Shown piece after piece: positions 37,792 through 48,505 of a stretch of 64,000 bases of DNA. The DNA comes from Leptolyngbya sp. BC1307 (GTDB lineage: Bacteria; Cyanobacteriota; Cyanobacteriia; Phormidesmidales; Phormidesmidaceae): contig NZ_NRTA01000004.1 in NCBI RefSeq assembly GCF_002286735.1, positions 124,001-188,000 on the forward strand, read 5' to 3'. Below the pieces are notes generated by a model. That model did no database searches and was not told where the DNA came from. It saw nothing but the letters and a program-made list of their open reading frames with translations. Each line of letters starts with the position of its first letter. Position 1 is the stretch's first letter. The position numbers and the translations under genes are program-made.

Positions 37792-38157
37792 CTATGGGCT
37801 AGTGGTCACAGACGCAACTCGACGAGTGGGGCGCTTACGATCGCTCTTTTTTACGCCGCCTGCCATCTCATATTCGTTGCTGTCTTTGCCATAGCGGGCG
37901 GCGACGCCCAGCAGCATTTGCTCGGAGTGAATTGCCAGTAGCCGCTCGGCCTTATCGACTTCGTTTTGCAGCTCATCGACGTAAGAAAGCGTCTTGTTGT
38001 AAGCGTTGATCCGGTTGCGCAGATTGTCTATGCTTTGGCTGTAAAGCTCCATTGTCATGCCTGGCCCCAGGTCTAGCTTGTCATCAATTGACTGCATACC
38101 GGCTGAGCGCCGCTGTGCTTTGTCGAGAATGCGTGAGCTTCGTTTTGATCTGGCCAT
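37792..38157 (-). CDS. Conserved hypothetical protein, coiled-coil type
   Basis: From ATG 38157 the protein has 121 residues. It starts with a basic segment MARSKRSSRILDKAQRRSAG, followed by DDKLDLGPGMTMELYSQSID, then a long helix with a coiled-coil pattern (RNRINAYNKTLSYVDELQNEV, listed here only as a 21-residue region at about residues 46-66) and ERLLAIHSEQMLLGVAARYGKDSNEYEMAGG. The tail is basic (KKSDRKRP). The YGKDSNEYEMAGG end is the most family-like part. Function unknown. The frame continues upstream to 38316, but over sequence that looks non-coding. It lies between two dispersed repeats in the accessory segment. Confidence 0.7.
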   Translation of the reverse strand: MARSKRSSRILDKAQRRSAGMQSIDDKLDLGPGMTMELYSQSIDNLRNRINAYNKTLSYVDELQNEVDKAERLLAIHSEQMLLGVAARYGKDSNEYEMAGGVKKSDRKRPTRRVASVTTSP

Positions 38158-38319
38158 GATAGATCTCGCTTGTGAAAGATAAATAGCTGAAAGATAAACA
38201 ACTTTTGGCGTTGCTGCTTTGGCGTTATTGCCGGAGCTGAAAGATTGTATGAGAAGTGTCGGGCTTACTGCATTGGCCCCCTTTTGAAAGACCAAGATGC
38301 TACCCATCGGTATCAAAGT

Positions 38320-38417
38320 GGGTTCCCCAATGCTGGGGGCTCTGAGTTTGCGGGCTGTCTTAGTTTCAGACAGTTTAGCTGCGCTCTGGCTTCCCCCAGA
38401 ATTGGGGGACTGAGGGG
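38320..38417. repeat. Palindromic repeat with CCCC/GGGG hairpins, different type from copies at 37.6 and 41.3 kb
   Basis: Contains GGTTCCCCAATGCTGGGGGC at the left and TTCCCCCAGAATTGGGGGAC at the right, each a small hairpin with 4-5 bp of C/G, about 60 bp apart. It is similar in design to the 95-bp element but not in core sequence. It lies just before the 42-bp tandem repeat. Confidence 0.55.
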
Positions 38418-38586
38418 GCCATGCAGTGCCTATTGGCGCTTTTCATACAGCTTCGTTCCTAAGCAGCGATCGCCTTTTCACGGACTGGAACATCTTTAGA
38501 ATGGCCGTTTTGAGATGTAACTTTCTACGTGGGGTTAATGATTTTTAGCGGATATTGATCGAGCCGCTTCCGTACTCTTACTGGCT

Positions 38587-38838
38587 CAGCCCGCCGTTAT
38601 CAACGAACGCCGCGCCCAAACCCTCGACAAGCCCGCCGTTACTAACAAACGCCGCGCCCAAACCCTCGACAAGCCCGCCGTTACTAACAAACGCCGCGCC
38701 CGAACCCTCGACAAGCCTGCCATTACAAACGAACGTCGCGTCCAAACCCTCGACGAGCCCGCCGTTATCAACGAACGTCGCGCCCGAACTCTCGACAAGC
38801 CCGCCGTTATCAACGAACGTCGCGCCCGAACCCTTGAC
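38587..38838. repeat. 42-bp tandem repeat, six units
   Basis: Units start at 38587, 38629, 38671, 38713, 38755 and 38797 with no spacers; the core is CCCGCCGTTA...AACGCCGCGCCC...ACCCTCGAC. Units differ at about 11 positions. In frame with 38587 the unit reads 14 residues, K-PAVTNKRRAQTLD, and five of the changes (CCC/CCT, CGC/CGT, ACC/ACT, CTC/CTT) are silent in that frame only, hinting at past coding. That frame is open from 38542 to 38856 but has no ATG, GTG or TTG start. It is not a CRISPR array, as there are no spacers. Confidence 0.88.
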
Positions 38839-38955
38839 AGGCTCCTTTTTTGCTGAGTACAACCAAGGGAGGGTTGCTCTGATAGGCCGGAATCAGGGCG
38901 AAGAAAGTTGGTGTAGAGTAAAAGCACATTATTCAAAATTTTATAGGCTGGTTTT

Positions 38956-39333
38956 ATGGAACCGATTACGTTGGCCGCAGCATTTGCCGCCCTCACCGCA
39001 GTGGCAAGCGGCATTACCGCCGGGGCAACTGGCAAACTTGGCGAGGGGTTGGTTACTGCCGCGTTGCAATGGCTGGCACAATTGCAGCAGCATGTGCCTG
39101 AGACGGTGAAGCGCTTAGCAGCAGTGAGCGATCCTAATATGATAGATGTTGAAATTCTTGAAGAAGTGAAGCAGGTGGCCGCAGCCCAGCCGGACGTGCG
39201 GGCGGCGATGAATAAAACGGTGGCGGCAGTTGCCGATAGCGATAAGTTCCCAAATTTGACGAAGCTGGCTGACAAAATTGCAAACGTTAATTTTGGAACG
39301 ATTACGACTCAGAACAATACTTTTAACTTTTGA
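38956..39333 (+). CDS. Small helical protein with C-terminal amyloid-like motif (candidate NLR effector or N-domain)
   Basis: 125 residues. The N-terminus MEPITLAAAFAALTAVASG is hydrophobic and Ala-rich, followed by GLVTAALQWLAQLQQHVPE and further amphipathic helices to about residue 105. The last residues, NFGTITTQNNTFNF, are Asn/Thr/Phe-rich and lack charge, as in bacterial amyloid signalling motifs found at the end of small effector (Bell-type) proteins encoded beside NLR genes. The stop TGA (39331-39333) is followed in the same frame, without another stop, by the NB-ARC/TPR protein. It may thus be the N-terminal domain of one 755-residue protein interrupted by TGA, or a separate effector. 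Assignment of the motif is by resemblance only. Confidence 0.65.
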   Translation: MEPITLAAAFAALTAVASGITAGATGKLGEGLVTAALQWLAQLQQHVPETVKRLAAVSDPNMIDVEILEEVKQVAAAQPDVRAAMNKTVAAVADSDKFPNLTKLADKIANVNFGTITTQNNTFNF

Positions 39334-39381
39334 CTACAGTCGTCGGAAGGGATTCCGCCAAAGTTAAGCACCCCTAACAAT

Positions 39382-41226
39382 TTGCCAGTGAGTAACGTTA
39401 GCCTCTTTGTCGGTCGGGCTGATGACTTGCAGGCGGTGGAAGATTTGCTGACGCAAAACAGCCGTGTGAATATTGCGGCGGCGGTGGGCATGGGCGGCGT
39501 GGGCAAAACAGAGCTGGCATGGCAGTATGCGCGGCGGCGGGGCGATGCTTTTGCGGGTGGGGTGTGCTGGCTGCGAGGAGTAGAGCCGATTGCGCCGCAG
39601 ATTGTCAGCTTTGCACGAGATTATTTGAACTTAGAGGTGCCGGAGCAATCAGAAGATCCGGTGGCCTGGTGCGTTCAGCGGTGGCCGAAGGAAGGGGAGA
39701 GGAACGGGCCGGTGCTGATGGTAGTAGATGACGTGCAGGACTATGGCGCGTTGAAGCCTTTGCTGCCGAATGACGGGCGGTTTCGGGTGCTGCTGACGAC
39801 GCGGCAGGCAATTTTGACTGAGGGTCAGCGGCTGGCGCTGGCGGTGCTGGTGCCGGAGGCGGCGCTGGAACTGTTGACAGGTTTGGTAGGTACAGCGCGG
39901 ATTGAGGCGGCGCTGGCGGATGCGAAGGCGCTGTGTGAGTGGGTGGGGCGGTTGCCTTTGGGCGTTGAGCTGGTGGGCTGGTATTTGGCGCAGCGGCCTG
40001 ATCTGACGATTGCGACGTTGCTAGAGCGATTAGAAGGCAAGCGGCTGGACGCGAAGGCATTGGTGGATACGCATCCGGAGATGACGGCGACGCTGGGGGT
40101 GGCGGCGGCGTTTGAGGTGAGCTGGGAGCCGCTGACGGCAGAGGCGAAGATGCTGGCGGGGCTGTTGGGGCTGTTTGTGGCTGCGCCGGTAGATTGGGAT
40201 TGGGTGCGGCAGGCTTGCGGGCAGGATGTGTTAGATGAAGAAGCGCTAGAAGACGCGCAGGCGGAGCTATTACGAGTGAATTTGTTGCAGCGGCAGGCGG
40301 CGAAAAATGGGCCGCGCTATCAGGTGCATCCGCTGGTGCGAGAGTTCTTTGCGGTGAAGCTAGCGGAGTTGAGCAATGCTGAAGCTTTGCAGCGAGGCTT
40401 TGCGCAGGCGATGACGGAGATTGCTAAAGAAATACCGCAGCCAGCGACGCTAGCTGTGCAGAAGCGGGTGGGGGAAGCGGTGCCACATATGGAAGAGGTG
40501 ACGCTGCGGTGGGCAGAGCGTTTAGAAGGGATTGATAAGCTTTGGTGCAGTGGGGGCTTAGCGCGATTTTACGAAAGCTTGAACCAGTGGGGAGAGGCGG
40601 AGCGGTGCTGGAAGCGATCGCTCACCATCAGCAGAGAACAGTTAGGCGATCGCCATCCCCACACCGCCAGCAGTCTGAATAACTTGGCGGGGCTGTATCG
40701 TTCGCAGGGGCGCTATAGCGAAGCGGAACCGCTGTATGTCCAAGCGCTCGAAATTTGGCAAACGGAGCTGGGCGATCGCCATCCCGACACCGCCACCAGT
40801 CTGAATAACTTGGCGGGGCTGTATCGTTTGCAGGGGCGCTATAGCGAAGCGGAACCGCTGTATGTCCAAGCGCTCGAAATTTGGCAAACGGAGCTGGGCG
40901 ATCGCCATCCCGACACCGCCAGCAGTCTGAATAACTTGGCGGCGCTGTACAAGTCGCAGGGGCGCTATGGCGAGGCCGAACCGCTGTATGTGCAAGCGCT
41001 CGAAATTCGGCAAACGGAGCTGGGCGATCGCCATCCCGACACCGCCAGCAGTTTATTCAATCTTGCAGCGCTTTACTACCAAACCCAACGCCATCAGCAA
41101 GCTCTAGCCTATATTCAACAAGCCCTAGACATCTATGTTCCCGTGCTAGGCTCCGAGAACCCCACCACTCAAAACGCTCAAAGCTGGCTTGTAGGCATCC
41201 AGCAAGCAATCGATCAGTCCACTTAG
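39382..41226 (+). CDS. NB-ARC/TPR protein (NLR-like STAND ATPase)
   Basis: A STAND NTPase typical of bacterial immunity or signalling. It begins NNLPVSNVSLFVGRADDL; Walker A is GMGGVGKTELAW near residue 38, Walker B VLMVVDDVQDYG, sensor LLTTR, the GLPL-like RLPLGVELVGW, and VHPLVREFF at the MHD position. From about residue 400 come kinesin-light-chain-type TPRs of 42 residues (GDRHPDTASSLNNLA). No ATG start exists: TTG 39382 and GTG 39388 are the candidates, and neither has a Shine-Dalgarno. The frame is open back to the TGA at 39331 and the intervening 16 codons look coding (PPKLSTPNNLP), so the gene probably was, or functionally is, joined to the upstream small protein. G-rich codon use (GCG, CTG, GTG) differs from the neighbours. 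Confidence 0.85.
   Translation: MPVSNVSLFVGRADDLQAVEDLLTQNSRVNIAAAVGMGGVGKTELAWQYARRRGDAFAGGVCWLRGVEPIAPQIVSFARDYLNLEVPEQSEDPVAWCVQRWPKEGERNGPVLMVVDDVQDYGALKPLLPNDGRFRVLLTTRQAILTEGQRLALAVLVPEAALELLTGLVGTARIEAALADAKALCEWVGRLPLGVELVGWYLAQRPDLTIATLLERLEGKRLDAKALVDTHPEMTATLGVAAAFEVSWEPLTAEAKMLAGLLGLFVAAPVDWDWVRQACGQDVLDEEALEDAQAELLRVNLLQRQAAKNGPRYQVHPLVREFFAVKLAELSNAEALQRGFAQAMTEIAKEIPQPATLAVQKRVGEAVPHMEEVTLRWAERLEGIDKLWCSGGLARFYESLNQWGEAERCWKRSLTISREQLGDRHPHTASSLNNLAGLYRSQGRYSEAEPLYVQALEIWQTELGDRHPDTATSLNNLAGLYRLQGRYSEAEPLYVQALEIWQTELGDRHPDTASSLNNLAALYKSQGRYGEAEPLYVQALEIRQTELGDRHPDTASSLFNLAALYYQTQRHQQALAYIQQALDIYVPVLGSENPTTQNAQSWLVGIQQAIDQST
40645..41070 (+). repeat. 126-bp near-identical DNA repeats encoding TPRs
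   Basis: GGCGATCGCCATCCC recurs at 40645, 40771, 40897 and 41023, exactly 126 bp apart; the units are almost identical at the DNA level. Each codes for one 42-residue TPR. Such identity suggests recent unit expansion or gene conversion, a route to new recognition surfaces. Confidence 0.92.
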
Positions 41227-41280
41227 CCCAAGTTCAGGATAAGCTGTCTCACGGCCAACCGCTCATACCAAAGCCAATCC

Positions 41281-41386
41281 GGGTTCCCCTTGCCAAGAGG
41301 AACCGTAAAGGAGGGGTTCTGACGACATACTCTATGCCCAGCCGAAACCCCTCTGCCTACGGCATCTCCCCTTGCCAAAGGGAGAA
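41281..41386. repeat. Dispersed ~100-bp repeat, copy 2
   Basis: Shares with copy 1 the left block GGTTCCCCTTGCCAAG and AGGAGGGGTTCT and the right block ACCCCTCTG with CCCCTTGCCAAAGGG. It lies 55 bp after the NB-ARC/TPR stop, so the two copies bracket the 42-bp repeat and the NLR-like unit. The following spacer, 41387-41599, shows no gene. Confidence 0.75.
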
Positions 41387-41599
41387 AAAATCCCCAACAG
41401 CAAACTCTAGTTATTCTTATCCCGAACTGACGTTACATAGCCAACAGGCAAACAGGTCGGACACTGGTCAAAGCGATTCCAGACCATCTCACCGGCTAAC
41501 GCCCTTCCTCCAAAATCCGCCCACTCAAAAACCGACCTCCCAACCCCCATTATCAGGAGTCAAGAGATCGGCCAGTATCTACCGATTAACTTGATGCGG

Positions 41600-42514
41600 C
41601 TATTGCAGCCTGGCCTTAGTCGGCGGCATCACCACCTTAGTCGCCAAGCCCACCTGCTTCAGCCCTTTAATCAGCCACCAGGTCATATCAATCTCTCCAG
41701 GAGCCAGGCCCGCTTGCGCCATCTTAGGAAAAGCGTGGTGATTGTTGTGCCAGCCTTCGCCATAGGTCAAGATCGCAACCCACCAGAGATTGCGGGAGTT
41801 GTCATCAGTGTCGAAATGGCGACTTCCCCAGATATGATTAGCCGAATTGATCAACCAGGTACAGTGCCACAGCAGCACCGCCCGCACAAAGATACCGTAG
41901 ATTACAAACGACCAGCCGCCAGCCGCATAGAGCAACAATGCCAACGGAACTTGCAAAAACAAAAAGTAACGGTCTAAAAAGGTGTAGTAAGGGTCATTCA
42001 CCAGGTCAGGTGCGTATTTGGCGTATATCTTCCGGTCAAACACCTCAGGCTTTAGGTGAAACAACCATTCCATATGGCTCCACCAGAACCCTTTATCAGC
42101 AGAATAGGGATCTTTCTCAGTGTGCTCGGTAAAAGCATGGTGCTGCCGGTGCCCAGCCACCCAGAAAGTTGGCCCGCCCTGCAAAGCCAATGCGCCCATC
42201 GTAGCGATCGTATACTCTAGCCACTTCGGAACGCGAAAGCTGCGGTGCGTTAGCATCCGGTGATAGCCCATACAAATGCCGACGCTGCCAGATAGCCAGT
42301 GTAAAAAGATGGCTACACCCAAAGCCGACCAAGAGAAAAACCAGGGCGCAAGCAGAGCCAGACCGTGAATTACCGTAAAGAAACCGATAGAGACCCAGCT
42401 GATCTTATAAGGAGTCTGCGAATTGTCATCTGAGGAGCTTTCTACAGGCATTACTGCGGGGAGAGCTGCCGGAGAAACCGGTTCACCCAAGGGGCGAGAG
42501 GTCGTGTAGGGCAT
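41600..42514 (-). CDS. desC: Acyl-lipid/acyl-CoA delta-9 fatty acid desaturase (DesC-type)
   Basis: Puts the first double bond into stearoyl chains of membrane lipids. The 304-residue membrane protein has the three His boxes: HRMLTHR (His85, His90), HRQHHAF (His122, His125, His126) and WHNNHHAF near residue 262. Hydrophobic pairs lie at about 45-80 and 175-205. The first 35 residues are unconserved. The gene is divergent from a TetR-type regulator gene, and two related 17-bp palindromes lie between the starts, so it is probably controlled by that regulator, for instance in response to acyl chain state or temperature; this is inference. Confidence 0.93.
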   Translation of the reverse strand: MPYTTSRPLGEPVSPAALPAVMPVESSSDDNSQTPYKISWVSIGFFTVIHGLALLAPWFFSWSALGVAIFLHWLSGSVGICMGYHRMLTHRSFRVPKWLEYTIATMGALALQGGPTFWVAGHRQHHAFTEHTEKDPYSADKGFWWSHMEWLFHLKPEVFDRKIYAKYAPDLVNDPYYTFLDRYFLFLQVPLALLLYAAGGWSFVIYGIFVRAVLLWHCTWLINSANHIWGSRHFDTDDNSRNLWWVAILTYGEGWHNNHHAFPKMAQAGLAPGEIDMTWWLIKGLKQVGLATKVVMPPTKARLQ

Positions 42515-42577
42515 GGAACGTAAAAACCTTTTGCTAGATAGAGGAGTATTCGTCGGTGCTTGAATACGTTAGGGTAT

Positions 42578-42594
42578 TGCAAGTATCGCTTACA
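42578..42594. promoter_or_regulatory. 17-bp palindromic operator candidate 1 (desC/tetR spacer)
   Basis: TGCAAGTATCGCTTACA, an inverted repeat with one mismatch (TGCAAGTA versus CTTACA). It differs from the site 48 bp away at only three positions. It lies 64 bp upstream of the desC start. Palindromes of this length in a divergent spacer are typical TetR operators. Confidence 0.65.
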
Positions 42595-42625
42595 TTTTAA
42601 AGCTTAACCTGAGCTACCGTAAAAA

Positions 42626-42642
42626 TGCAAGTAGTGCTTGCA
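42626..42642. promoter_or_regulatory. 17-bp palindromic operator candidate 2 (desC/tetR spacer)
   Basis: TGCAAGTAGTGCTTGCA: perfect arms TGCAAG and CTTGCA around a 5-base centre. It lies 82 bp before the regulator's start. Together with candidate 1 it gives the consensus TGCAAGTANNGCTTRCA. Confidence 0.7.
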
Positions 42643-42723
42643 AATTTATGCCCAATGATTGCTTGCCGCCAAAGCAAATCGTTTTCGTTTGACTTTTGCA
42701 GGTGAATTTGTTTCCTAAGAGAG

Positions 42724-43929
42724 ATGGCCCCGGAGATGGCTGAGAGAAAACTATCAAGTCGAAAAAGGATTGTGCGCGCTGCCCTGACGTTGTTTTCACT
42801 GCAAGGCATTACCGCGACCACAACCAAGCAAATTGCTGAGCGAGCCAGAGTAAATGAGGTGACGCTATTTCGGCAGTTTGGCAGCAAACAAGGCTTGCTT
42901 TTGGCCGTGCTACAAGAAGCGCCCTTTCTAGAGGAAATGCGAGCAGCACTGACTGAAATTGCTGGCGCTAATCAGCCGCTATTAGCCTATGGGGCTTCGG
43001 GGCTAGAGCTGCTAGGCAATGTGCCAGAGCTAGTGCGATCGCTCATTGGTGAAGCCGGTCAGCTGCCGACCGAAACCCGGCAAGCCTTAGGGCAAGCTCT
43101 CTATCAGGCCAATCAGCAAACCGTGGGCTACCTGCGCGGGGCAAAAATGAGCTGGCCCGGTTTGTCAGTAGAGGCAGCAGCCAGCCTGTTGAACACGCTG
43201 ATTGTAGGCCATGCCGTGATGACGTTTAGCAGCGACCAGCAGGGATTGTGGCAAAGTCAGGCAGATTTTTTGGCGGCAGTTGATATATTGCTTGCGACTG
43301 GTCGGACCGCAGTAGACAGTAGGGCCGTAGACAGTAGTTCGGAGGTAGCGCCCGTGGCAGACCTGCCTGCGGAAACGGTGCGATCGCTTTTTCAAAAGGC
43401 TAAAAAACAGGACGCTCAGACCTATGCACTGGTATACGTCCTATTTGGCGCAGGGCTGCGGGTAGAAGAAGTGGCGGGTTTATGGCGATCGCATTCCCTC
43501 AGCGGCAAAACCCAGCATCTGCTCACCCTGGTTGGCGACAAGCCGCGACAGGTTCCCCTCAACCGCTGGATTATGGGCCAACGCTATGGCACCTACCTGC
43601 GCAACCCGCTCACCCAATGGCTCAAAACCCGCCAAGATGACCAGCCCGAAGTTTTCATCGGCAAAGACGGTCAGCCTCTGAGCGCCGCCGAAATCACTGC
43701 GCTATGGGCAGAAATCGCCGTAGACAGTACTATCCTCACCGGCGCACCCGTTGATCCCTTTCAGGCGCGACAAACCTGGTGCATAGAGCTACTGATGAAA
43801 GGCATCAGCCTAGAGAGCCTGAGCCTATTGGCGGGCTCAAGTCTGGAGGCGCTAGCGGTCTATGACCATCGGGCTAAAGAGAAAGCTGCGCTAGAGCAGG
43901 CGCTAGCCATCGATCAAAAAAACAATTAA
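42724..43929 (+). CDS. TetR-family regulator fused to a degenerate tyrosine-recombinase domain
   Basis: 401 residues. The TetR helix-turn-helix spans residues 10-60 (RIVRAALTLFSLQGITATTT, VTLFRQFGSKQGLL) and the TetR ligand/dimer region about 70-195. After a Ser/Val linker, residues 214-385 look like a phage-integrase catalytic domain: FGAGLRVEEVAGL carries the box I Arg (Arg246), GDKPRQVPL the strand Lys (Lys273), PFQARQTWC the box II Arg (Arg349), and LAVYDH the Tyr (Tyr380). Both catalytic-site His positions are changed (Phe346 and Gly371), so recombination activity is doubtful and the domain may serve DNA binding or assembly. It is divergent from desC. SnoaL-like and membrane-protein genes follow. 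Confidence 0.85.
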   Translation: MAPEMAERKLSSRKRIVRAALTLFSLQGITATTTKQIAERARVNEVTLFRQFGSKQGLLLAVLQEAPFLEEMRAALTEIAGANQPLLAYGASGLELLGNVPELVRSLIGEAGQLPTETRQALGQALYQANQQTVGYLRGAKMSWPGLSVEAAASLLNTLIVGHAVMTFSSDQQGLWQSQADFLAAVDILLATGRTAVDSRAVDSSSEVAPVADLPAETVRSLFQKAKKQDAQTYALVYVLFGAGLRVEEVAGLWRSHSLSGKTQHLLTLVGDKPRQVPLNRWIMGQRYGTYLRNPLTQWLKTRQDDQPEVFIGKDGQPLSAAEITALWAEIAVDSTILTGAPVDPFQARQTWCIELLMKGISLESLSLLAGSSLEALAVYDHRAKEKAALEQALAIDQKNN

Positions 43930-43972
43930 CCTAAAAATCTATGACTCCTTTGGGTAGCAGGGTGGCAAATCT

Positions 43973-44416
43973 GTGACAGCAGCAAGTGAGACAGTGCGGG
44001 CCATGTACGCCGCCATCAATCAGCGCGATCTAGACCAGGCCATGACCTATGTAGACGAAGACTGCGTCTACCAAGATCTCAACTTTCCTCGGGCGTTTGA
44101 GGGAAAGCAAGGGGTGCGATCGCTCTTTGAAGACTCGATCAACAACGTGCCAGACGACTTCAAATTTGTAATTGACGACATCACAACCGGCGATGACCAT
44201 GCCGTCGGCATTACCTGGCACGTTGAGCTAGACGGTGTGCCGTTCCCTAACACGCGGGGGGCCAGCTTTTATCGGGTATCTCCTAGCTCTGGCCTGCTGA
44301 TATTTGGGCGAGATGTGGTTGAGTCGCCCGTAAAGCTCGGCAAGGTAGCCTTCACCATCATTCGAGCAGTCACCCCCCTGGCCCGGCGATTTCTTAAAGT
44401 CAGCGCAGACTCTTAA
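43973..44416 (+). CDS. SnoaL-like/NTF2-fold protein
   Basis: 147 residues with the cone-shaped NTF2 fold of polyketide cyclases and ketosteroid isomerases. Recognisable segments are VRAMYAAINQRDLDQAMTYVDEDC, FEGKQGVRSLFEDSI, and HAVGITWHVELDG, with GASFYRV after it. The 45-residue C-terminal extension (VKLGKVAFTIIRAVTPLARRF) is amphipathic and could touch a membrane. The start is GTG 43973, 44 bp after the regulator gene, so they may be cotranscribed. Substrate unknown; many cyanobacterial members act as stress-related small-molecule binders. Confidence 0.8.
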   Translation: MTAASETVRAMYAAINQRDLDQAMTYVDEDCVYQDLNFPRAFEGKQGVRSLFEDSINNVPDDFKFVIDDITTGDDHAVGITWHVELDGVPFPNTRGASFYRVSPSSGLLIFGRDVVESPVKLGKVAFTIIRAVTPLARRFLKVSADS

Positions 44417-44438
44417 GTAAAGCCACAAGTAAAGCCAC
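44415..44438. repeat. 12-bp perfect tandem duplication
   Basis: AAGTAAAGCCAC occurs twice (44415-44426, 44427-44438), starting on the stop codon of the SnoaL-like gene and ending 10 bp before the next ATG. Confidence 0.8.
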
Positions 44439-44448
44439 CATCAGCAAC

Positions 44449-45213
44449 ATGTCTGAGATTATTCAAGAGATAGAAAAAACAGCCCAGCAACAGGACTCTG
44501 CCACAGCCAAACGCAATCGGCGGCTCTCCCAGCTTTTGTGGGGTCTGGTGGTGCTGTATGTAGCGGTGCTTCTACTGTCGCCACCCGATCAGCTACTGCC
44601 AGGAGAACCGATTTGGGCAATCAAACCAGACACCCTGACAGAAGTGCTGTCGGAGTCTCTCAATTTTTTCTTTGTACTGCCTATCTTAGGCAAGCTATTA
44701 AACACCTCCGCGCCTGTTGTTCATCCAGCCGCCGAAGCCTTTTTTAACTTTTCAGAAGCGTGGATCTTTATGTTTTTACCGCTAATGTTGTTAGATCGGC
44801 GCGGACAAAACCTGCCTCGGGGGGCGCTTTGGGGTGCAGCCATGTTTCTCACCAATGTGTTTTTAATGCCGTACATGGCGCAGCGGTTGAGGCAGCCTGC
44901 GGTAACTGATCAACCAATGCCTGAGAAGGGCTGGTTAGCTCGCAGTTTTGGGCTGGTTGGAGGGATAGTTGGGCTAGGGGCGATCGCCTGGCTGTGCCTG
45001 GCTCGTCCCGAATTTGGCTCATTAGCCGACCGAGGGCTCTATTTTTGGCAAAAGCTGGCGACCGACCGGGTGACGATTGCCTTCTGCGTAGACCTGCTGC
45101 TGTTTTGGATATTTCAGATCTGGCTGATGGGAGAAATAATCCCTAAAGACAGCAAAGAACACTCTCTTCGATGGGTTCCTTTTTGGGGTCTGGCAGTCTG
45201 GCTGCTAATTTGA
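44449..45213 (+). CDS. Integral membrane protein of unknown function
   Basis: 254 residues with about six hydrophobic helices: LLWGLVVLYVAVLLLSP (residues 25-43), FFFVLPILGKLL (about 72-84), WIFMFLPLMLLD (about 102-113), LWGAAMFLTNVFLMPYM (about 123-140), LVGGIVGLGAIAWLCL (about 166-182), FCVDLLLFWIFQIWLM (about 205-220), and a last segment at the C-terminus. The N-terminal 25 residues are charged and cytoplasmic. The recognisable part resembles uncharacterised cyanobacterial membrane proteins; no catalytic motif is visible. It is third in a row after the TetR-recombinase and SnoaL-like genes, so the three may act together. Confidence 0.78.
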   Translation: MSEIIQEIEKTAQQQDSATAKRNRRLSQLLWGLVVLYVAVLLLSPPDQLLPGEPIWAIKPDTLTEVLSESLNFFFVLPILGKLLNTSAPVVHPAAEAFFNFSEAWIFMFLPLMLLDRRGQNLPRGALWGAAMFLTNVFLMPYMAQRLRQPAVTDQPMPEKGWLARSFGLVGGIVGLGAIAWLCLARPEFGSLADRGLYFWQKLATDRVTIAFCVDLLLFWIFQIWLMGEIIPKDSKEHSLRWVPFWGLAVWLLI

Positions 45214-45309
45214 GCTTCTGGCAATTTTGAGACAGCTGTCACCTGAGACCATCGCTATTTTGGCTGCAATAGGCACTCAAGCTGGGCGAGCTGCTGCTGT
45301 AATAAATAT

Positions 45310-45693
45310 GGCTCTTCAGGAGTTGCCGTGAAGCGCCACTAAATTTAGTGTCGAGTTGAGTTGAAGGATTATGGGAGAATTAGAGGCGACGTATTGCGGC
45401 AGAGTTCAATGAAAAACTCAATAGAGATCCCGCTAGATTTACCAGATGTGCGAGTATTAGCGGTCGATAAAATGGATCAAGGTGATTAGCTGATCCGCTT
45501 AGAGAGCACTTTAGAAGGGACGGCCTGTCGTCAATGTGGCCGTCAGATCACTCAATTTCATGGATTTGACAGTGCGCTCCGTCTGCGGCACTTGCCGCTG
45601 TTTGAAGTGCCCGTGTTCGTTGAATTTCGACCTAAGCGCTACCGCTGTGGAGACTGTGAGGGTCATCCTATGACGACTCAGCAACTCAGCTGG
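45310..45693 (+). mobile_element. Remnant of an ISL3-family insertion sequence (5' end only)
   Basis: GGCTCTTCA at 45310 matches the typical terminal sequence of ISL3 elements. From ATG 45409 a frame reads the transposase N-terminus (IPLDLPDVRVLAVDK), interrupted by TAG at 45487-45489, then continues with the ISL3 zinc-binding domain: CRQCGRQITQFHGFDSALRL, FEVPVFVEFRPKRYRCGDCE. Homology stops after TTQQLSW near 45693, where unrelated sequence and a terminator hairpin begin. About three-quarters of the transposase and the right end are lost. Confidence 0.82.
45337..45350. promoter_or_regulatory. 14-bp perfect palindrome inside the ISL3 remnant
   Basis: CACTAAATTTAGTG, about 60 bp before the transposase ATG. 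It may be a leftover regulatory site of the element. Confidence 0.5.
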
Positions 45694-45717
45694 GCGGGGT
45701 TCAAATGGGTTAAAAAC

Positions 45718-45762
45718 GGGGTAACACTTTAGGCTTTAAGAATCGGCCTAAAGTGTTACCCG
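45718..45762. terminator. Strong hairpin between ISL3 remnant and katG
   Basis: GGGTAACACTTTAGGC (45719-45734) pairs perfectly with GCCTAAAGTGTTACCC (45746-45761), 16 bp with an 11-base loop. It lies 31 bp beyond the katG stop (minus strand) and downstream of the IS remnant. The T-run is weak on both sides, so rho-independent action is likely but not certain. Confidence 0.7.
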
Positions 45763-45792
45763 CTTTTGAACTATCTCTCTTTAACTGGTCCG

Positions 45793-48096
45793 TTAAGCGC
45801 GAACGTCGAAGCGATCCAGCATCATCACCTTGTTCCAGGCCGCGACGAAGTCTTTGACCATCCGCTCGTGACCGTCATCAGCGCCGTAGACTTCAGCCAC
45901 CTGACGAAGCTCCGCGTTCGAACCGAAGATGAGATCGCATCGGGTCGCGGTGAACTTTGTTTCGCCCGTTTGGCGATCGCAGATGTTAAAGAGCATCTCG
46001 CGATTGTCAACCGGCTTCCACTCGTAGTCCATACTGGTCAGAACACGGAAAAAGTCGTTGGTCAAAACGCCGGGCCGATCAGTGAAGATACCGTGCTTTG
46101 AATGGTCATAGTTCTGGTCGAGGGCGCGAAGTCCGCCGACAAGAACCGTCCATTCGGGCGCGGTTAGCGTGAGGAGTTGCGCCCGATCAAGGAAGATGCG
46201 CTCCGCCTTCACCTTGTAGCCAACCGCCTCGTTGTGATAATTGCGGAAACCGTCCGAGACCGGCTTTAGCCATTCAAAGCTTTCAACATCTGTCAACTCC
46301 TGAGTCGTATCCATCCGTCCCGGCGTGAAGGGGACGGCAACGGAAAGCCCAGCATCTTGCGCAGCCTTCTCGACCGCAGCGCAGCCGCCGAGGACGATGA
46401 GATCCGCCATCGAGATTTTTTTGCCCGACTGAGCGCCGTTAAAGTCCGCTTGAATTCGCTCCAGAATCGATAGAACCTCACCCAGTTCCTGCGGGCGGTT
46501 CATCTCCCAGTCTTTCTGGGGATCCAGGCGAACCCGCGCCCCATTTGCGCCGCCGCGCTTGTCGGAATTGCGGTAGTTCGACGCCGATGCCCAAGCGGCT
46601 GATACCAGCGCCGAAACAGAAAGCCCACCGGCCAAAATATTGGCCAAAATATTGGCCTTCAGAGACTTGATATCGGCGTCGTCAACAACGTCATGGTCAA
46701 GCGCCGGAATCGGATCTTGCCAGGGCAGATCTTCCTCTGCAACCTCCGGGCCAAGATAGCGCGTTTTCGGACCCATATCCCGATGGGTCAGCTTATACCA
46801 GGCACGCGCGAACGCATCGCCGAAGTAATCGAAGTCATTTAGAAAGCGCTGACAGACCTCGTGATAGGCCGGATCGACCTTCAATGCAATATCCGAAGTC
46901 ATCATCATTAGCGCTTGCTCAACGCCAGGCTGGTGAGCGTCTGGCGTCTTCGGCGCGTCAGGATTGCTCGGCGTCCACTGAATGGCACCGGCTGGGCTCT
47001 TGGTCTGCTCCCAGTCGTACTTAAAAAGATTTATCAGGTAGCTGTTGTCCCACTGGGTCGGGTTTGGCGTCCAGGACCCTTCAATTCCGTTCGTCATCGT
47101 ATATTCGGCAAACCCGGTGCCTTCAGGGTTTTGCCACCCCATGCCCATAGCCTGAATCGGTGCACCCTCTGGCGCTGGACCGATCTGATCTGGCGCGACC
47201 ATGCCGTGACTTTTACCAAAGGCATGACCGCCTGCGATCAGCGCAACAGTTTCCTCATCATTCATAGCCATCCGCGCAAAAGTCTCGCGAATGTCTCGCG
47301 CCGAGCCATGGGGGTCGCCTTCTCCGTTTGGCCCCTCCGGGTTAACGTAAATCAGCGCTTGGTGCGAAGCCGCTAGCGGATTTTCGAGGTCGTAATAGTC
47401 CTCGTCCGGCTTCCCGACCCAGCGAATATCGCGAGTGACCATCTCATCAGGATGACCGGACAGTTCCTTGTGGTGTTCCTTAACATCGTCAGCCGGATCG
47501 CCGTTCCAGAACTCGGATCCCCAATAGGTAGCGCGATCCGCCTCCCAAGCATCAATGCGACCGCCGCCAAAGCCGAAGGTCTTGAAGCCCATGATCTCAA
47601 GCGCGCAGTTGCCAGTGAGTACCATCAGGTCGGCCCAGCTCAGTGCCGCGCCGTATTTCTGCTTGATTGGCCAGAGTAGCCGGCGTGATTTATCGGTATT
47701 CCCGTTATCCCACCACGAATTGATTGGGGCGAAACGTTGCATGCCCTGACCTGCTCCGCCACGACCGTCCGCAATCCGGTAGGTGCCGGCGGCGTGCCAC
47801 GCCATGCGAACCATCTGAGGCCCATAGTTGCCATAGTCGGCTGGCCACCAGTCCTTTGAATCCGTCAGCAGCGCTTTGATGTCGCGCTTCAACTGCTCGA
47901 AGTCAATCTTCCCGAAGGCTTCCTGGCTATCGAAATCTCGCAGCGGGTTGGCCTGGGGCGAATTTTGGTGAAGCAGCTCGACCTGAAGCCGGTTCGGCCA
48001 CCAATCATCAGTTTGCGGCTTGGAGCCGAGCGCGCCGCCAACGCGGGTTCCCCGAAAGGGACATTGCGCAGAAGAGGTGGAAGGGGTGTTATTCAT
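45793..48096 (-). CDS. katG: Catalase-peroxidase
   Basis: Bifunctional heme enzyme that removes hydrogen peroxide. The 767-residue protein has two peroxidase-like halves. The active N-half shows the distal triad in [12 protein letters not shown], whose Trp joins the Met-Tyr-Trp adduct with the Tyr of [15 protein letters not shown], and the proximal His in [10 protein letters not shown]. The C-half (from about residue 450) is the usual heme-free copy. An in-frame 12-bp duplication at 46631-46654 gives the repeat ANILANIL in the C-half linker region, absent from typical KatG. It is flanked by decayed ISL3 and IS630 elements, suggesting mobile acquisition or an insertion-prone site. A terminator-like hairpin follows the gene. 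Confidence 0.97.
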
Positions 48097-48132
48097 TCAG
48101 TCCAATCTTTTTTGATAGTTTTTGTTCGTCAA

Positions 48133-48186
48133 GCTGTTTGCCGAGCTGTAGCTGTTTGCCGAGCTGTAGCTGTTTGCCGAGCTGTA
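48133..48186. repeat. 18-bp perfect tandem repeat upstream of katG (three copies)
   Basis: GCTGTTTGCCGAGCTGTA at 48133, 48151 and 48169, starting 37 bp before the katG start codon, thus in its promoter or leader. Copy number could affect expression. Confidence 0.9.
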
Positions 48187-48441
48187 TGGAGCGTCGCCAT
48201 TCGCAGCGGTCTGAACGGCGAGTGCCTTTATAGCTAGAGTCTCTAGCAAGCGCTAAATGAGCTGCCGTTTGCTGAGGGCATTCTTTAAGGCATGTCTATC
48301 GTTTGCGGTTCGTCATGAGAATGTCTTCTGGGAGTGATTCAAACTGGAAGCGACTTATATCTCCACAGCGCATTATAGGGCGTGGCTCAGGTGAGGGTGT
48401 ATACTTTCGGTTCAATAAAGTCGTCTACCAGCAGGGCGATA

Positions 48442-48505
48442 AGTTGAGCGTTTCCCAGTTCGTCAAAGTGTTCAGTTGAGCGTTTCCCAGTTCGTCAAAG
48501 TGTTC
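48442..48505. repeat. 32-bp perfect tandem duplication in the IS630 remnant
   Basis: The 32 bases at 48442-48473 (starting AGTTGAGCGTTTCCCAG) are repeated exactly at 48474-48505. Confidence 0.88.

Follow-up and report, generated by a model that had tools for sequence, protein, structure and literature searches.

A conserved cyanobacterial TetR regulator fused to a catalytically dead tyrosine-recombinase domain: candidate repressor of the adjacent desaturase gene desC

The window analyzed here, a 64,000-nucleotide stretch of the Leptolyngbya sp. BC1307 genome, carries on its plus strand a gene (tetR-int; 42724..43929; 401 aa) whose product joins a TetR repressor to a catalytically dead tyrosine-recombinase domain, as judged from the open reading frame, Pfam, AlphaFold2, fold comparison and the family alignment. 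The frame is stop-free over its 401 codons. An alternative start at Met5 (base 42736) would give a protein of 397 aa; the alignment of the other members, whose starts were picked by script to lie close to the query start, begins there, and Met5 rather than residue 1 may be the genuine start. The helix-turn-helix (HTH) of the TetR part (42769..42909, plus strand; residues 16-62) was assigned by family conservation and by the TetR_N profile (PF00440), which scored 54.2 bits against a curated Pfam cut-off of 24. It is followed by an all-helical ligand and dimerization domain (42910..43311, plus strand; residues 63-196; AlphaFold2, VIA/Foldseek) and by the pseudo-recombinase domain (43342..43926, plus strand; residues 207-401). 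The latter was delimited by a stand-alone model, fold comparison, residue mapping and the Phage_integrase profile (PF00589), which scored 44.6 bits at residues 214-386 (curated cut-off, 27.1). The original prediction, made from the letters of the sequence, had described an N-terminal TetR HTH at residues 10-60 and a frame running without a stop into a phage-integrase domain at residues 214-385, and the profile matches and the open frame agree with it on each of these points.

Modelled alone with AlphaFold2, residues 207-401 reached a pLDDT of 94.6 and a pTM of 0.90. The model of the whole protein, computed from an input of 48 aligned family members, had a mean pLDDT of 90.8 but a pTM of 0.56, so that each domain is predicted with confidence while the placement of the two domains relative to each other is not; the linker between them (residues 201-206) was modelled with low confidence. 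In the TetR half, helices were predicted over residues 55-201, and residues ~9-196 aligned with many TetR structures at Z scores of 15-16. FadR with stearoyl-CoA (3whc) was among the nearest folds, tied with many other TetR folds. For the domain at 207-401, structure comparison gave a Z score of 20.8 to XerA (177 residues aligned), 17.7 to XerH and about 15-16 to Tn1549 Int, integron IntI, Cre and lambda Int; the phage repressors MrpR/YopR and SroF were also among the matches, at about 12-13, and the closest sequence-profile match was the XerA-like 4a8e. The integrase fold that structure prediction and fold comparison were expected to reveal was found, with XerA at 20.8 and lambda Int at about 15. 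The N-terminal core-binding domain of tyrosine recombinases is absent from tetR-int, residues 9-196 having a TetR fold in both the AlphaFold2 model and the fold comparison. By the sequence and model features tested, tetR-int is a TetR-family member.

Catalytic positions were placed by profile alignment to XerA, and family counts were taken from 75 unbroken full-length members. The window protein has Arg246, Arg349 and Tyr380 at the positions that had been named as catalytic, and the alignment places them identically; position His-II is Phe346, position His/Trp-III is Ser372, and the catalytic Lys is absent. The earlier claim that both His residues were lost holds for Phe346, but the second position is residue 372 and not Gly371, and Lys273, formerly taken as catalytic, aligns instead with the second Lys of the Xer hairpin, a position at which 1 of the 75 members has a Lys. 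Across the family, Arg-I (246) is an Arg in 7/75 and mostly Ser, Arg-II (349) is an Arg in 17/75 and mostly Gln, and His-II (346) is a His in none (1/75, L023, if the alignment is anchored on the TW motif). Residue 372 is Trp in 21 members and His in 1, and residue 380 is Tyr in 69/75 (5 have Phe and 1 has Leu). All 75 members have Arg275, and 74/75 have Arg383. Of the 75 members, 71 lack Arg-I, Arg-II, Tyr or more than one of these. All three are kept only in the window protein, L006, L014 and L036, none of which has His-II or the catalytic Lys, and the full set Arg-Lys-His-Arg-His/Trp-Tyr was present in 0/75 members. As a control, five genuine integrases encoded in the same genome, chosen from six other loci in part by motif, were aligned likewise (position III was misaligned in two); both Arg residues were found in 5/5 and His-II in 3/5. 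Because the catalytic residue set is incomplete, tetR-int is not a tyrosine recombinase by function, and its recombinase part is, as far as residues predict, a pseudo-enzyme without a cutting role.

The domain has nevertheless been conserved along with the loss of its active site. Mean column identity in 48 members was highest in the HTH, at 0.81, where the recognition helix is highly conserved, with 0.67 for the recombinase domain and 0.64 for the ligand domain; 20 of 188 columns of the recombinase domain were invariant in the 48 sequences, which is more than in the ligand domain. This conservation suggests that the recombinase domain is under selection. Its net charge is -1 in the window protein and averages +2.3 in the 48 members, compared to +1 to +9 in the five integrases of the same genome. 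At residues of about 282-296, opposite a gap in the XerA alignment, lies a family-specific stretch (W-I-x-G-x-R-Y-G-x-x-x-x-N-P-L) in which Tyr288, Gly289, Asn294 and Pro295 are invariant in 48 members; this stretch could be a docking surface. That a degenerate recombinase domain has been recruited into a regulator, as originally proposed, is thus backed by the profile matches, the predicted structure and the family-wide loss of the active site.

The fusion constitutes a conserved family found in many cyanobacteria. Each of the 35 genomes searched from the window's own taxonomic family yielded a match with an E value no higher than 1.5e-52, a few of these matches being split or partial. Of 292 genomes sampled evenly from the phylum, 36 had a match at E 1e-12, and reading of the match rows assigned both halves to 30 of these, the TetR part only to 2 (G038 and G057) and just a distant TetR paralogue to 4. 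Chance read-through or an annotation accident was considered as an origin of the frame and was ruled out by the conservation of the fusion across relatives. The 75-member set consists of unbroken full-length members, and many further full-length matches without an assigned locus were left out of it. Before counting, we dropped duplicates of the same locus (L001, L003, L005, L065, L092 and L093), one unrelated locus (L004) and broken or contig-cut copies (L002/L062, L071, L135, L137, L138 and L140); L136, which runs off the contig edge without a stop, was not counted as TetR-only. A scan of a large genome collection, which reached close relatives only, yielded three members of the Phormidesmis type besides one unrelated integrase, and viral contigs scanned with the family profile contained no relative. 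The plasmid search gave three records with one true member, a 414-aa protein (44% identical) on plasmid pP742403 of Gloeothece citriformis PCC 7424, publicly annotated only as "TetR/AcrR family transcriptional regulator." On this mobilizable plasmid (L145, 1046-5224), the desC/tetR-int pair and both operators have as neighbors a gene for an orange-carotenoid-protein N-terminal domain and one for an ssl1498-type light-harvesting-like protein. The presence of the pair on a mobilizable plasmid indicates that the unit is able to travel.

On the opposite strand lies desC (41600..42514, minus strand; 304 aa), a DesC-type acyl-lipid desaturase gene assigned by PF00487 (fatty-acid desaturase, 87.3 bits) and by its His boxes (HRMLTHR, GHRQHH, HCTWLINSANH and GEGWHNNHH), and the proposed target of the regulator. 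Its third box, HCTWLINSANH, resembles the HFTWFVNSATH of DesC1/DesC2 and not DesC3, as far as these are given in the available part of PMC4390868. Of eight desaturase loci examined from its genome, no other fitted the complete set of four box patterns, which were coarse. Whether desC is always adjacent had been put forward as a check, and a desC-type gene adjoins tetR-int in 75/75 full-length members, divergently in 74 and on the same strand and downstream in one. In this exception (L144, 700-2230; genome G046), the regulator gene is inverted so that both genes point in the same direction, and an operator pair with a spacing of 48 bp lies between the regulator gene and desC, ahead of desC. The locus resembles a natural promoter swap in which the regulator was reversed and the operators stayed with desC. 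The sites therefore follow desC, and this is the best single argument for desC as the target. No conserved partner gene other than desC was found beside the pair in the 48 flanks tested, and no Rfam RNA family was found in 38000-48500. Further genes in the surroundings are a SnoaL-like gene directly 3′ of the regulator (43973-44416), which recurs in just one further flank among the 48, a TTG-started frame of 614 aa with an NB-ARC domain and TPR repeats (39382-41226), and a 767-aa frame (45793-48096, minus strand) that is catalase-peroxidase (KatG)-like by eye from its sequence.

The intergenic region between tetR-int and desC contains two 17-bp palindromes of the form TGCAAGTNNNACTTGCA, which we regard as predicted operators. 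Operator 1 (42578..42594, plus strand; TGCAAGTATCGCTTACA) covers the inferred desC transcription start, and operator 2 (42626..42642, plus strand; TGCAAGTAGTGCTTGCA) contains the inferred desC -35 hexamer. Consensus comparison places the candidate -35 box (TTGCAT) at 42625..42630 and the candidate -10 box (TAAGCT) at 42601..42606, 18 bp from it, both on the minus strand. Operators were called between the two genes with at least 11 of the 14 fixed bases of TGCAAGTNNNACTTGCA. By this rule, exactly two copies are present in 71/75 full-length members, compared to 0.01 sites per region in a shuffled-region control. L016 and L144 also have an operator pair, which in L144 lies on the other side of the regulator gene; L143 has three candidate operators, and the full-length L055 has one strong and one weak site. 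The start-to-start spacing was 46-48 bp in 59/72 and 44-60 bp in 70; two full-length members had a spacing of 84-85 bp. In the plasmid copy, the two operators are both present, with a spacing of 47 bp. Read on the desC strand, operator 2 contributes with its downstream half a TTGCA(N) -35 hexamer, after which a TANNNT -10 element occurs at 16-18 bp in 71/72 regions versus 8.6 expected after shuffling; the -35 match is partly built in, because the hexamer lies within the operator. A TACAGT-like -10 element for the regulator gene was found just upstream of operator 1 in 31/72 (2.7 after shuffling), which makes autoregulation of tetR-int plausible. Around the locus, strongly conserved bases were found in operator 1, operator 2 and the -10 region of desC and nowhere else.

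The exact pattern TGCAAGTNNNRCTTRCA occurs at two sites in the 4.9-Mb genome of the window, both at the tetR-int/desC locus. Allowing up to two mismatches gave 67 places versus 46 for a reversed-pattern control, so weaker operator sites elsewhere are possible. Across 32 genomes there were 45 distinct exact sites, of which 41 were at the tetR-int/desC locus and 4 elsewhere (reversed-pattern control, 2); the six genomes of this set that lack the family contained none. G007 and G009 carry the family and have 0 exact sites, because their operators deviate. Two of the four off-locus sites were inspected; one lies inside a methyltransferase-like frame, and the other lies just outside the nearest long reading frame. 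A wide regulon was considered as well and was rejected, given the two exact sites in the genome of the window and the four off-locus exact sites in relatives.

We propose that tetR-int is probably a repressor dedicated to transcription of the neighboring desC, acting through two TetR dimers, one at each operator; that it represses and does not activate is deduced from where the operators lie. With a dimer on each palindrome, RNA polymerase would be blocked at the desC promoter. A lipid-derived ligand, such as an acyl chain on CoA or ACP, would alter binding via the TetR cavity, by analogy to DesT, MadR and FadR, and desC would then be made when more double bonds are needed. In this scheme, the recombinase domain would not cut DNA; the docking of its C-terminal helix into a neighbor would be reused to couple the dimers across the promoter. 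Xer and Cre tetramers are held together by a cyclic exchange of C-terminal helices, as described in the available part of PMC5241119, and two dimers would gather four recombinase domains. For these reasons, protein-protein coupling of the two dimers is our preferred role for the domain, a preference held tentatively and at slightly less than even chances. In a more elaborate version, which we consider unlikely, the four dead domains would form a Cre/Xer-like cyclic ring, that is, a chemistry-free synapse serving as a repression clamp on the desC promoter and opened by a lipid signal.

Relatives that lack the recombinase domain bear on this coupling. Eight members are TetR-only. Six of them, from one genus and representing a single lineage, have one operator each, and two (L053 and L070) have two operators, spaced by 47 bp and 49 bp, respectively. 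L053 has lost the domain within a clade of full-length members (support, 0.984). The frame-broken L071, from the same order as L070 and the six, likewise has two operators 49 bp apart. Since some TetR-only relatives carry both operators, the operator pair does not strictly need the recombinase domain, and the coupling role is weakened; the bridging or tetramer function suggested in the original prediction fits the paired operators and is weakened on the same ground. The DNA helix has 10.5 bp per turn, and the common spacing of 46-48 bp corresponds to about 4.5 helical turns, which would place the two dimers on opposite faces of the DNA; the promoter alone may set this spacing. L054, L064 and L066 to L070, all from one cyanobacterial order and mostly with a single operator, are TetR-only relatives beside desC and offer a natural comparison for the contribution of the domain.

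Other roles of the recombinase domain have to be weighed against coupling. It might serve to dock a different protein or a signal (e.g., a partner linked to the membrane or to redox state) instead of the second dimer. The family-specific stretch at 282-296 opposite the XerA gap would suit such docking, as would the intact TetR/desC/operator unit of L053 and of the g18 lineage, both of which have lost the domain, but desC is the sole conserved neighbor, and even the SnoaL-like gene recurs in only one other flank; we regard this role as rather doubtful. The domain could also be a second DNA-binding module that touches the promoter between or beside the operators or makes nonspecific DNA contacts. 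Dead recombinase folds that bind DNA exist in MrpR (PMC10516654) and TnsF (PMC10293859), according to the available parts of these sources, MrpR/YopR and SroF are among the fold matches of the domain, and Arg275 and Arg383 are invariant or nearly so. Strong base conservation is limited to the operator pair and the -10 region of desC, however, and the core-binding domain that recombinases use together with the catalytic domain is absent. We rate this module as unlikely, and the second sequence-specific DNA site that had been suggested at the outset finds no support in the conserved bases.

Two further readings concern the fate of the enzyme itself. The largely lost active site and the dropping of the domain at least in L053, which is nested among full-length members, would be expected of an evolutionary passenger, a harmless fusion accident in slow decay; the unbroken frames of 75 members, the column identity of 0.67 and the 20 invariant columns make this reading very improbable. 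That four proteins, among them the one from the window, retain Arg-I together with Arg-II and Tyr might point to an active or partly active recombinase or topoisomerase that the TetR part directs to specific sites. These four proteins lack both His-II and the catalytic Lys, the other 71 lack at least one of the three residues, and MrpR, which likewise kept its Tyr, showed no recombination in the available part of PMC10516654, so that an active enzyme is hardly conceivable.

TetR-int is a candidate for the control of the first membrane-lipid double bond in many cyanobacteria, with one regulator, one promoter and two exactly placed operators, and it is a widespread bacterial case of a recombinase domain emptied of its chemistry and retained in a metabolic regulator. 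A search of largely open-access literature returned neither a fusion of TetR with a recombinase nor a TetR-type regulator for desC in cyanobacteria. The earlier statement that this layout is undescribed agrees with that search, but a repressor consisting of a dead recombinase only, MrpR, is already known.

The closest systems in function are DesT of Pseudomonas aeruginosa and MadR of mycobacteria, TetR-family desaturase regulators that respond to acyl-CoA; DesT tells saturated from unsaturated acyl-CoA (available part of PMC8872791). As with these proteins, a TetR regulator appears to be paired with a desaturase gene, and operators at the desaturase promoter are present in silico, at the inferred -35 box and start site of a desC that is adjacent in 75/75 members. 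Unlike tetR-int, DesT and MadR are not mentioned as having a recombinase domain in the available part of that source, and tetR-int lies next to a single desaturase gene, to which it seems to be dedicated. XerA, XerC, XerD and XerH share the catalytic-domain fold of tetR-int, which differs from them by the loss of catalytic residues, the missing core-binding domain and the fusion to TetR. Inactivated recombinase domains in new uses, DNA related or regulatory, are found in TnsF, the target selector of Tn6022 (PMC10293859), and in Crypton-derived DUF3504 proteins (ZMYM; fungal Ndc10/Gcr1) (PMC3212892), both as described in the available parts of these papers; these proteins serve transposon targeting or are eukaryotic, and their fusion partners are unrelated to that of tetR-int. 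For the use of a dead recombinase, the closest system is MrpR/YopR, the master repressor of the Bacillus prophage SPbeta, together with SroF of phi3T. According to the available part of PMC10516654, MrpR has lost the corresponding Arg and His residues and kept Tyr, and replacement of the Tyr rendered it temperature sensitive, which is a precedent for the Tyr kept in the tetR-int family. Both are dead tyrosine-recombinase folds in a repressor with the Tyr retained; MrpR, however, has its own core-binding domain and binds DNA by the recombinase fold itself, whereas in tetR-int the TetR domain replaces the core-binding domain and is predicted to supply operator recognition. MrpR acts in phage lysogeny and tetR-int would act in chromosomal lipid metabolism, which would extend an idea known from the phage repressor MrpR to the everyday regulation of chromosomal genes.
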